In this document: positions 40,777-48,226 of the stretch, piece after piece
How the letters are laid out: the number at the start of each line of letters is the position of its first letter
Position numbering within the stretch: position 1 is the stretch's first letter
Assembly (NCBI RefSeq): GCF_008831285.2
Contig: NC_045138.2
Coordinates: 18,633,934 to 18,697,933, forward strand
Direction of reading: 5' to 3'
DNA length: 64,000 nucleotides
Source: Nymphaea colorata
Taxonomy: Eukaryota; Streptophyta; Magnoliopsida; Nymphaeales; Nymphaeaceae
The notes under the pieces: generated by a model
Told to the model about the DNA's origin: nothing
What the model saw: only the letters and a program-made list of their open reading frames with translations
Database searches by the model: none
Program-made: the position numbers and the translations under genes

Positions 40777-43700
40777 TTATGTTGTTTGGGCATTTGACAA
40801 TGGATCAAGAAAAGCAGAGTGCATAGGATCTGCTGCCCAGAGATTTGCAAGGTGCTCATGAGAACATGTAAGCCTGTGGACCTCCTCAATAGCCCAAATG
40901 GTGGCCGCAGCTTTGCAAGGATGGATAATATAATCCAACGGCCAATGATAAACATCAGTTTCCATCCTTGCCAGGTCCCACTGCTTCATTAGGACATTAG
41001 TGAGATAGTGTAAGGGTTGTCCATATATCCGCTTGATGGATTTTGCTAGACCCTGCCATGTGACACATGGGATAACAGCCTGATGATCAGTGGGAAGAGG
41101 GATGCCCTTCATGTGTTCCTGATATATTTGTGCTCTTCTGTTTAGTACACCTGCACCATCAAGGCACAGCCACACGCTTGAGGCACGTATTTGACAAGCC
41201 TAGGTCTCCATGAGGTTAAAACAGAAAAGGACTAGCTATCTATAAGACTGATGAGGAGCAGCTGCCTAGCCAACAGAAACAACAATGGTTTACAAAAGAC
41301 TAGCAACAGAAAAGCTTGCAAGTCAGTAGCAGGACCTGTGTTTTAGGAGCTGTTATTTAAGTGAATAGTTTAGCAAACACTAACGAGATGCATTTTTATG
41401 ACAGTTCCTTTAAAGAAGCAATTTCACAAAATCCCACCAGGATCACCATGGCCATAAGCTTTCAAAGGAACAGTCAAAGAAATCAAAAAAACCTATATAA
41501 CAAGAACAGGTAAACCATAATATGGCCTCCTGAATTGTCACCGGAAATCCATAATCCATGGTTATACTCAATTTTGACATTTTGACCCAATGGACTGCAG
41601 ATCTAGCACATATATCAAGTAAATAAAAGCAAAGTTAGCAAACCCAAATATTGAAATGGGGATTATGATCAGGAGTTAACATGATTATATTTCATAAAGT
41701 AATACAAAGTGTCCATATGAATGCCTTTCTAAGTCATTGGTGCAACAAGAAAAGTGACCTTTCCTTGAATTTCAGCAGGTCCAACTGAAAAAACCATATC
41801 TTATTTCCAGCAATCCTAAAGTGTGTCTATTTAGATATAGAGAATAAGATTTCAGGTTGAATCGTTGCAGTTTCCAGAATCTATTGGTAATATCTAGAAG
41901 CATAGAATGTATTATGCTCTCTCTCTCTCTCTCACACACACACACACACACACACAATTGTCCAACAACCCTGTTCATTTTCTGCACATCTTTGCAATCT
42001 TTCAAAAAATGTATGTTCCCAATATCTAACAAAACCTGAGTAGCTAAGATCCCAAAGAGTTGGCTAACCTGTCCAACTAGTCAATTGAGTTGGTTATCAA
42101 CCAACATGTGTTCTCAAACAAGTGATTAGTTGCTCAGACTACAGAACTAGTCAGCATAGATGTTAATTAGCCAATCTACACACACACACACACACATATA
42201 TATATTTCAGGACTGGTTGAACCCCCCACCCCTTTTTTTCCCAATCTCTCACATACTTTTTCTATCTCATCATTTTCTTCCTTTCTCCCCACACAACCAT
42301 CCTACCTAGGGCTGGGGCATCGGGTAGGCCTGACCCAATTTAATAAAAAAACATTTAAAATATATAAATTTAAGATATAAACATATATTTATAATGAAAA
42401 ATATATGTAAATAATAAAAAATATTTTTTATATACATTGGCGGGACCGGTCCAGTGCCACCCAAAGATGACAGTCTATCCCACCATAAATCATCCACAGT
42501 GATGCTCTTAACAATTTGAGCTTTTATCTCATCTTCAACACAATAACTATTCCAATTTTTATCAGCAACCATGGGAACCAATGCATTCTTTACTGTTTGA
42601 ATTATTTTCATCATGATATGATTGAAGTGAACCTTGTTTCAACAATTCAAATAAGAAAAGCTACTAAATAAAGACTATGCATGTTGGTGATTCACAATAA
42701 AATTTTTGATGTTCTTCACATCTCTTTTTAAGTTTTCAATCTATGAATTGACTCATATGCACAAGGATCTTCATCTTGTCTTGGTGGATTGCATATGCTC
42801 GAGTGCTACACATAAAGTATTTGCTACACATGGAGTCCAGGAGATACGAAGAAAATCATCTCTCAAACCTAATGTTGCACTCTCGCATACATGAAGATTA
42901 CCTATAATGATTTGCACTACCTTATCAAAACCAATTTCTTTGATCACTCAACAAACAGCTGTCTCAAATATTCAGCATCCTTATATGGGTGCGGGGTGCA
43001 GATGCATATACAATACAAATTGGTCCACGAACAACAAAACTATCAAGTAACAAATAACAAAACAACAAATAATAGGGTCCTAAGTTTTGAGTTCATACTT
43101 CATCTAATCATGTATATGATTCTTTTGCTGTTCCATCAATAGTTGTCATCCATGCTTTCAATGTCATCACCAAAATCATCAGAAGAATGAATAATGGGAT
43201 CAATTAAACTCATACTAGCAGCACACATATGGTTCCCTTCAAAATCAAACTCTTCTGGGTCCACATCCCAAAATTTAGATGATCCACAACTGCACGTAAT
43301 GATAACAGGAAATTAAAGCTTGAAAATACTATCCGTAAAAATATAATGAATCTAATAGAGCACCAGGAAATCATTGGAACAACAAAATAACATAAAGAAA
43401 TATAAACATATAATACCTATATTTTTTTGGCTTTCGTGAAAGAAGGTGCAAATTGGAGTGCACAAAAACCAAATCCTCTACATGTTTGTTGGTGAGCTCA
43501 TTCCTTTTTATATTTTGTATATGAAAATACGTGCTCAAATTTCTTTTGCAACATGATAATGTAACAGGCTGAGAAACCAATCTCAATGCAAGTTTTTGGA
43601 GTGCAGGCATTTCTGATCCATAAACTGACCACCAATCAAAAGGACTTAGGTCTTCATCTTCTCTTGCTACTACTGCATCTAGAGAATCAAAATTTCCAAT

Positions 43701-46700: not shown

Positions 46701-48226
46701 TTCAACAAATTAAAACAGAGCAATTTTGTCCTTGAAGGGGTTGACCACATCCACTGTTGATATGTGTCGGGTGAGCATCAAAAGTCAGACAAAATTAGCC
46801 TCGAGTAGTGGACCACACCAAAGTGTGTTGACCACATCCAATGCTGTGTCAGAGGCATACCATTGGTGCGACTGCTATTTTAGTGAATCAATGTGACTTA
46901 GCTTGTATTTTCAAGACACATCAACTCTTCTCAAAAGACTAACTTATCACATGCAATAGCAATAAAATTAATTACTTGTCATCTTTCAATGGTTGTCCAC
47001 CCCCTCCAAGAACTAATTACATACCAGTTTGATACTGTGCAAACTTTTCAAAGTTAAACATTTTTTTTCTAAACATTGATTTTCTCATCTTATAAGAATT
47101 ACGACCTTACTTGAAAAGAATCATCTTTAAGAATTGATATTCATAGTCTTCTGACCTTGGAGGCACATATGCAGGTATTTTGCAATTTGCAAGTGAAGTT
47201 ACTAAATCTTTCCAATAAGGACGTCTTGCTACATTAAAAGGTATGCAGCTAGAGAAAAAGAATCTTCCTACTTTTCGATCTATTTCTACTATTCAACAAG
47301 CATCATATGTCTCGATGGTATTTTTGCTCATCACACCTGTCTTTTTTTCTTGTGAACATCATCATTCTTAAGAGGCATGAGAACATTCATTTGAATTGAT
47401 TGGCCCAATCTCTTTCTTTGAATTCAATCCCAATGTTCTTGCATCTTCTTGAAACTGACATATTTACTTTTGCATCCATAAACTTATATAGACATTATAA
47501 ACAGAGCAACAGACATTCATTTCCGCATTTTAAAACTCATATAAGCCGAGCAACATTATACACGAACAAAATCTAATGATCTATGCAGTTGGATTTATGA
47601 TGCCCTACCCTATCCCACCATTCCAACTATGTCTAGGCTTGCTTAAAGGCCAACACAGTATTAATCCATCCGGCTAGAGAATGGGCTTCAAATTTAGGAT
47701 CAGTGAGAACTCAAGAAAACTAAATGCTAGCAATTTGGTATACTAAGATCTTACACCTACTGGACCCATAAGGCCATGACACTCCTTGTTTGAGGGTTTG
47801 AAGGATACATTTTTATGATGGCATCAGGCAAATTTAACTGAATCACTTTATATACCATCTACGTGTGTACATACAAGAGAATGTGGTCCACTCTGTAAGG
47901 AGATGTCTCAGGCATGAAATGTGGCCAATAAGTGACCGATCAACATTCCAATTCGGCGTGCTCATATATTATCAAACTGAACAATTCTTTGACGCATCAA
48001 AAAATCAAAAAGAAGTTAATATCCATGTGGCATGCCACTATCATCCATTTTGCAACTAAACAAGACAGAACGTGTACATACTATCAGATGAAATATCCTT
48101 AGTCGAGGCAGCATTGCCGTCCTTATTTCTCCTCTTTGAGCTCGCCATCTGAAAACCTTCGTCTGAAACGGAATCCGAATCAGAGGATAGCTCCTCCACT
48201 TCATTCCATGGCCCCGATCTCTTCAT
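40777..48226 (-). CDS. RDM1: RDM1, RNA-directed DNA methylation 1
   Basis: Two coding exons, 48082-48226 and 40777-41150, join in phase (GAT A | GT GTA) to give 172 aa; Arabidopsis RDM1 is 163 aa. Exon 1 encodes an acidic, Ser-rich N-terminus ([19 protein letters not shown]). Exon 2 encodes the RDM1 fold: [73 protein letters not shown] and [17 protein letters not shown]1 is a small plant-specific protein of the DDR complex (with DRD1 and DMS3). It binds single-stranded methylated DNA and helps recruit Pol V to RdDM targets in the nucleus. The donor is GTATGT; the acceptor is GATGGTGCAG. The 6,931-bp intron (41151-48081) contains an intact hAT transposase gene and older hAT debris. Exon 1 is assigned by phase, composition and position, so it is less certain than exon 2. 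Confidence 0.9.
41916..41956. repeat. Compound (CT)n(CA)n microsatellite
   Basis: A CT run followed by a CA run, inside the RDM1 intron. A smaller CA/TA run lies at about 42,178-42,206. Confidence 0.95.
42307..42463. mobile_element. Possible Ac-type hAT MITE
   Basis: The left end TAGGGCTGGGGCATCGGG resembles Ac/hAT termini. The reverse complement of the right end, TGGGTGGCACTGGACCGG, is roughly similar, and the 100-bp interior is nearly pure A/T. I found no 8-bp target duplication, so boundaries are tentative. It abuts the broken end of the older hAT copy that starts at about 42,470. Confidence 0.4.
42470..42986 (-). pseudogene. Older hAT transposase relic, downstream part
   Basis: Read on the minus strand, this aligns collinearly with the intact transposase gene at about 44,110-44,640, for example [13 protein letters not shown] and [12 protein letters not shown] segments and [20 protein letters not shown] against [20 protein letters not shown]. 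Frameshifts and stops break it. The alignment stops at about 42,986, and the missing upstream part resumes at 46,901. Divergence is far higher than within the intact gene. Confidence 0.85.
43136..45449 (-). CDS. hAT family transposase (BED finger, DUF659, hAT dimerisation), intact
   Basis: Exon 43417-45449 plus exon 43136-43289, joined in phase (AG | T), give 728 aa with no internal stop. A BED-type zinc finger is near residues 45-95 (CGFC at 66-69, His83, His89). The DUF659/RNase H-like core shows SDGW with Asp237, ITDN with Asp298 and [11 protein letters not shown] with Cys322 and His325. The C-terminal hAT dimerisation region runs from [10 protein letters not shown] (about 602) through [14 protein letters not shown] and KRNLSTYF to [11 protein letters not shown] (about 671). 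An acidic tail follows in exon 2. The usual CERNWS motif reads CKRNLS. The start is the ATG of MTDKGKG; a TTG further upstream is not used. The protein would bind element ends in the nucleus and cut and paste the element. It lies in the RDM1 intron on the RDM1 sense strand. Confidence 0.9.
45661..45804. repeat. Long (TA)n microsatellite
   Basis: About 145 bp of almost uninterrupted TA dinucleotides with a single phase slip near 45,720. It is the longest simple repeat in the window, just upstream of the transposase start. The many Ile-Tyr open frames across it are artefacts. Confidence 0.97.
46901..47475 (-). pseudogene. Older hAT transposase relic, upstream part
   Basis: This aligns collinearly with the intact gene from about 44,643 to 45,140. 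Shared stretches on the plus strand include GCAATAGCAATAAAATTAATT against GCAATGGCAATAAAATTAATT, and CTTGGAGGCACATATG against CTTGGAGGCACATATC. It takes up where the relic at 42,470-42,986 stops, so the two halves are one older copy split by an insertion. Many indels destroy the frame. Confidence 0.85.
47476..48081. other. RDM1 intron, 5' portion
   Basis: No protein-like frame or repeat family recognised. This is the part of the intron nearest the RDM1 first exon and is the only part of the intron upstream of the hAT material. Confidence 0.4.

Follow-up and report, generated by a model that had tools for sequence, protein, structure and literature searches.

A nested and probably immobilised hAT relic in the putative coding intron of the silencing gene RDM1 of Nymphaea colorata

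Does a transposon that lies in an intron of a gene for RNA-directed DNA methylation (RdDM) regulate its host gene, or is it tolerated there and kept silent? The question is raised by a window of 64,000 nucleotides of Nymphaea colorata DNA (RefSeq assembly GCF_008831285.2, contig NC_045138.2, positions 18,633,934 to 18,697,933 of the forward strand), in which the RdDM gene RDM1 harbours an element of the hAT superfamily; all positions below are those of the window. A sequence-only reading had described a coding-intact transposon at this site and had suggested that methylation of the element could affect RDM1 splicing or termination; a tolerated, silent intron was given as its own alternative. 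This alternative fits best. The locus is probably an ordinary intronic relic: RDM1, present in one copy, carries in its long intron a nested, immobilised and catalytically dead hAT element that is spliced out and silenced.

The RDM1 gene was read on the minus strand as follows:

48239..48671, minus strand: possible intron of the 5' untranslated region (..GGAG/GTGAGA...CTTTAG/GTTG), read by eye
48082..48226, minus strand: putative RDM1 coding exon 1 (residues 1-48 and one base), with an in-phase GT donor
41151..48081, minus strand: RDM1 intron of 6,931 bp, with GT...AG sites
40777..41150, minus strand: RDM1 exon 2, carrying the complete RdDM_RDM1 domain (profile and structure-database matches)

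Joined in phase, the exons at 48226-48082 and 41150-40777 give 519 nt and 172 aa; the exon coordinates, phase and GT...AG splice sites proposed earlier were thereby recovered. Residues 52-166 of the product matched Pfam family RdDM_RDM1 (PF09187, DUF1950) at E 9.9e-53 and 177.7 bits (curated cut-off 25), and the Arabidopsis RDM1 structures 1vk5 and 6ois were matched in a PDB search at E about 2e-45. RDM1 is a single-copy gene in the N. colorata assembly, in which a six-frame search (407,766,735 bases, 783 contigs) gave one match to PF09187, namely RDM1 exon 2. The Arabidopsis residues tested or named in the excerpts of PMC3912163 and PMC6718625 are M50, Y51, Y54, K121, L128 and I132; at these positions Y58 and K128 are retained, and I57, H61, A135 and V139 are changed (Arabidopsis number + 7, by ungapped alignment and assuming a 12-residue tag in 6ois).

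The intron holds the inner of two nested hAT sequences, with these coding features:

43417..45449, minus strand: transposase exon 1 (DUF659 and hAT dimerisation region)
43136..43289, minus strand: predicted transposase exon 2, with stop
43545..43547, minus strand: codon 635, AAA (Lys), aligned with Hermes residue 572

The 728-aa transposase without stops that had been reported on the same strand of the 6.9-kb intron was found again; it runs from the ATG at 45449 to the stop at 43136, across a predicted 127-bp intron (43416-43290). Profile searches identified DUF659 (1.2e-42) and the hAT dimerisation domain (Dimer_Tnp_hAT, PF05699; 2.1e-11). Relatives were collected by a protein search of the genome with the transposase (66 matches, self included; 64 of 1787 candidates scored) and by a DNA search with the whole element (49 matches; 40 of 398 candidates scored). 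Of the protein matches, the 29 with a locus outside the window entered the alignment (L009-L037; alignment A1 without L037); two partial hAT copies (L005, L006) were used in a few comparisons only.

Position 635 is Lys in the inner copy and Glu in 29/29 other aligned copies (E635K), and it aligns gap-free with residue 572 of the full-length Hermes transposase (8edg). The excerpt of PMC6027215 gives D180, D248, E572, R318 and W319 as the essential residues of Hermes. At position 638 the inner copy has Leu and 27/27 others have Trp (W638L), and it departs at 18 of 169 positions that are invariant among at least 24 of the 29 aligned copies having a residue there. D237 and D298 are both present and, by sequence motif, are presumably the two catalytic Asp residues. 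The term coding-intact is misleading: the frame is open, but the catalytic Glu is now Lys and the 3' terminal repeat is lost. With these two losses, the inner copy should neither catalyse transposition nor be mobilised in the way of a normal element, and an autonomous, intact hAT element was ruled out on the same grounds. An open transposase frame does not equal an intact transposon.

A strong-looking donor at 45164 would fuse transposase residues 1-95 in phase to RDM1 exon 2. Such an RDM1-transposase fusion was set aside: the aligned copies shown have a different residue pair at this site, with no sign of its use.

The ends of the inner element and its surroundings were resolved into the following parts:

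46902..47453, minus strand: older hAT relic, 5' piece (family codons 106-271), with stops and frameshifts
46902..46909, minus strand: target-site duplication, upstream copy AATACAAG
42987..46901, minus strand: inner hAT element, with 5' terminal repeat CTAAGTCACAT... and a 3' terminal repeat about 11 nt short
45661..45803, no strand: (AT)n microsatellite in the 5' non-coding part of the inner element
42980..42987, minus strand: target-site duplication, downstream copy (C)ATATAAG, with the first base altered at the truncated 3' end and one more mismatch
42463..42986, minus strand: older hAT relic, 3' piece (family codons 269-449)

By this arrangement, the inner element evidently inserted later, in sense orientation to RDM1, into an older relic of the same superfamily. 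One relic piece covers family codons 106-271 and the other 269-449, so that the two join up at the borders of the inner element. In nucleotide alignments with 993 aligned sites, the pieces showed 31 frameshift-type gaps and 9 in-register stops, and differences were near-even over codon positions (for example 0.27, 0.25 and 0.30 against the inner copy), which argues for a long-dead older insertion with a younger one sitting in it. The tree tip of the relic measured 0.24 substitutions per site, with a placement support of only 64.

The two copies of the target-site duplication, AATACAAG and CATATAAG, agree at 6/8 bases (duplicated (A)ATAYAAG); exact 8-bp duplications flank 3/3 relatives examined (L009, L010, L011). 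Two unrelated hAT fragments lying together by chance were ruled out by the single family meeting position and the duplicated target. At 46901, immediately after AATACAAG, the inner element starts with CTAAGTCACAT, the counterpart of which is CTATGTCACAT in copy L017; copies from other groups start with CTATGTCACA or a near variant. The inner element lacks the expected 3' terminal repeat: its last bases, ...GCACCCCGCACCC, are followed by ATATAAG, and about 11 nt are missing. With the hAT superfamily of DUF659 type (Hermes 8edg, 2bw3 as solved relative) the element shares the DUF659 domain, a dimerisation domain at the C-terminus and a related 5' terminal repeat, and it has a probable, though imperfect, 8-bp duplication; it differs from Hermes and other hAT elements by the Lys at the catalytic Glu site and by the 3' terminal repeat lost in the inner copy.

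Among the matches listed, the nearest genomic relatives of the inner element are 76-80% identical in nucleotides and wrecked, and no DNA match longer than 1 kb, apart from the element itself, exceeds 77%; no other protein match among the 66 scored exceeds 67% aa identity. Alignment-dependent counts of frameshift-type gaps and in-register stops were 17 and 5 for L044 and 13 and 4 for L046. The search rows of 5/29 other aligned copies (L011, L012, L013, L016, L022) are without a stop, and frames of 689 aa in L011 and 696 aa in L022 (tip synonymous divergence, dS, 0.026-0.037 in L022) are open, so that a long open frame is not peculiar to the inner copy but is seen in ordinary copies too. Copies L028-L036 form a related hAT subfamily; three pairs compared among L028, L029, L030 and L033 are 98.9-99.6% identical, and such near-identical copies point to a recent burst in this genome.

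Traces of methylation were sought as C>T changes, polarised by a majority rule over 13 outgroup copies. In total, 39/353 sites of the inner copy and 18/334 sites of the sister stem had changed from C to T or from G to A (p 0.008), and changes in the opposite direction were equal (44/710 and 44/733). By context, the inner copy had 3/17 in CG, 7/45 in CHG and 28/289 in CHH, with one change without context, and the sister stem had 1/10, 1/41 and 16/283. The excess would fit past methylation in several contexts; it indicates neither the pathway nor the present state. As a separate observation, the lowest observed/expected (o/e) CpG ratios of ten stretches were those of RDM1 exon 2 (40777-41150; 0.16, 3 CpG) and of 41151-42300 (0.13, 5 CpG). 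This depletion of the exon and the adjoining intron looks like a trace of gene-body methylation.

The history proposed for the ordinary relic is that the long coding intron of RDM1 took in a hAT element long ago, and that a second element of the same superfamily, in sense orientation, then inserted into this relic; in this inner copy both the 3' terminal repeat and the catalytic glutamate are now missing. RDM1 transcripts most likely cross the element, which would be removed by splicing as a large intron, and host methylation would keep the inner element silent. IBM1 and RPP7 are Arabidopsis genes with heterochromatic intronic transposable elements (TEs). Intragenic TEs of Arabidopsis are mainly intronic and are able to stay heterochromatic inside transcribed genes, as stated in the excerpt of PMC4417168. 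The N. colorata locus resembles the cases in the excerpts of PMC4417168 and PMC10241880 in that a TE lies in an intron of a functional-looking gene and could sway poly(A) choice; it differs in that the host gene is itself an RdDM component and that the locus is known from its sequence alone. Should the intron be methylated and RDM1 be spliced across it, RDM1 would be another natural gene in need of heterochromatin-tolerant splicing, within the silencing machinery itself. Among the titles listed in literature searches for RDM1 none concerns a transposon in an RDM1 intron, which is no proof of absence from print.

That methylation of the element tunes RDM1 splicing or termination, and thereby gives RdDM a feedback on itself, is very improbable. 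The sense orientation of the element would suit this idea, as would C>T values above the sister stem in CG, CHG and CHH (CG counts being tiny), and precedents are provided by the methylation-monitoring sequence of ROS1 (excerpt of PMC7758401) and by intragenic TEs whose poly(A) use is under epigenetic control (excerpt of PMC10241880). The likeness to ROS1, so far as the excerpt of PMC7758401 describes it, lies in the idea of a methylation-pathway gene that senses methylation at its own locus; the ROS1 sequence, however, is a promoter with a reported effect in Arabidopsis, whereas the RDM1 case concerns an intron. Poly(A) hexamers were sought at 48081-45450, 43135-42900 and 40776-40660. None of AATAAA, AATAAT and AATAAG occurs at 43135-42900 or 48081-45450, the rest of the intron being unscanned; the 236 nt past the transposase stop thus lack the three common hexamers, which speaks against the feedback. 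Moreover, RdDM genes are many, and an intronic TE in any one of them would have invited this idea (by reasoning, not by a count), so that the coincidence is weak. As analysed here, feedback on RDM1 finds no support beyond its setting. If the intron is methylated and RDM1 spliced across it, this would be a locus where feedback is directly testable.

Several observations weigh against an ordinary relic in an RDM1 intron and are given together. The closest relatives with intact ends (L009, L010, L011) have the termini CAATGATACC.../...GTGACATAG and thus open with CAATGATACC, not CTATGTCAC; because their 5' ends differ, the match of the inner element's 5' repeat is to another group and to the 3' ends of those copies. 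In a codon model of 12 sequences, the inner-copy tip had a dS of about 0.30 and a ratio omega of 0.28, and omega = 1 was rejected (2dlnL 27.2). Compared with the wrecked L044 and L046, a frame without stop or frameshift should be too well ordered for a long-dead relic, unless decay is very recent. Finally, the score of a global alignment of exon 1 with the Arabidopsis N-terminus was equalled by 1014/5000 shuffles.

The codon models were fitted to 10 sequences (9 of 29 copies and the inner copy) and then to 12 (with L044 and L046; 11 of 32 other copies); L045, which is partial and closer to the sister clade, was left out of the latter. Fixing the tip omega at 0.2 or 0.4 cost 3.1 or 3.2 in 2dlnL. 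Omega was 0.21 on active stems and 0.89 on the L044 and L046 tips (tip dS 0.066 and 0.058). The 10-sequence fit agreed, more weakly (2dlnL 9.05 for omega = 1), and equality with the sister stem was not rejected (0.69). By arithmetic, the tip excess over 0.21, if it is neutral time, corresponds to roughly dS 0.03. In simulations (400 runs per setting, frameshifts uncounted), 2.9-3.5 stops were expected at 0.03 substitutions per site, with P(no stop) 0.04-0.07; at 0.04 substitutions per site P(no stop) fell to 0.005-0.0125. The open frame is mildly surprising; it is not decisive, because L022 and L011 also keep long frames, and this frame was the very feature for which the sequence-only reading had singled out the element.

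These values bear on the proposal that the host has exapted the transposase as a gene nested in RDM1, for example for a DNA-binding hAT-derived protein, and that selection keeps its frame. We consider this decidedly unlikely. It would account for the open 728-aa frame, the rejection of omega = 1 at the tip, the joint loss of catalytic Glu and 3' end, the distance from all listed relatives (none above 67% aa, or 77% nt beyond 1 kb) and the signs of residence, an altered duplication and a lost end, beside an undamaged frame. Yet the tip omega mixes time before and after insertion, and with omega at 0.21 on active stems most of the constraint can predate insertion; frames of ordinary copies are open as well (5/29, with L011 and L022), and the loss of one end is possible by a single failed excision rather than by age. 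The changes at conserved residues, like the C>T excess, resemble decay: among 235 residues that do not vary between 21 outgroup copies, the inner copy had 26 private changes and the sister majority 11 (p 0.02). These numbers were read from a list in which 43 residues are changed in the inner copy, 17 of them shared with the sister majority, and 28 in the latter; sister-side changes at the tips are dropped from this comparison, so that the decay phase itself accounts for some of the inner-copy excess. Together, omega, the C>T excess and the conserved-residue changes are as expected for an element that would have evolved while active, then been methylated and immobilised, and begun to decay. There is only a slight chance that the dead hAT is kept as a working nested host gene; a silencing gene would then house, and perhaps share its regulation with, a tamed former silencing target. 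Should the transposase turn out to be maintained and expressed, an RdDM gene would have an exapted hAT nested within it.

The assignment of exon 1 to RDM1, on which the intronic position of the relic depends, is plausible. The earlier assignment holds as regards the GT donor and the phase; similarity to the Arabidopsis N-terminus is no better than that of shuffled sequences, and in a phmmer search of the PDB the alignment with Arabidopsis RDM1 takes in just residues 40-48 of exon 1. It is unlikely, though less so than exaptation, that RDM1 does without the exon at 48226-48082, either because it starts in another exon or because the exon is part of the next gene (40627-40248), which would place the transposon outside any RDM1 coding intron. 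Besides the shuffle-level similarity, this would agree with a splice from 48082 to 40627 that, by eye, is equally in phase, and with four further in-phase ATG-to-donor stretches of at least 20 codons between 49000 and 41151 (five candidates in all, exon 1 being the third in length). Three of these four lie within hAT sequences, however, and the fourth is a 30-codon stretch in the 5' flank of the intron. The CpG o/e ratio is 0.73 across 48720-48082, resembling a gene 5' end, and 0.13-0.46 in intron segments; the splice signals are acceptable by eye, and the N-terminus is Ser/Asp-rich and close in length to that of Arabidopsis.

Beyond RDM1, one further exon was noted on the same strand:

40248..40627, minus strand: likely exon of the next gene, matched once in the assembly and by no Pfam family

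The exon is well-formed and open and lies 150 bp past the RDM1 stop; exons upstream of it were not found, and its best matches in Pfam and the PDB were at chance level. Rfam gave no match at gathering score. A plus-strand open frame is present at 51997-52434 and, by its motif, may encode a Bud32/TP53RK-type kinase. Upstream of RDM1, the stretch at 48820-49600 is rich in GAGCCGAGTTCGAG-type sequence and in self-inverted stretches (e.g. 49584-49456), and is perhaps a small transposon near the RDM1 promoter.

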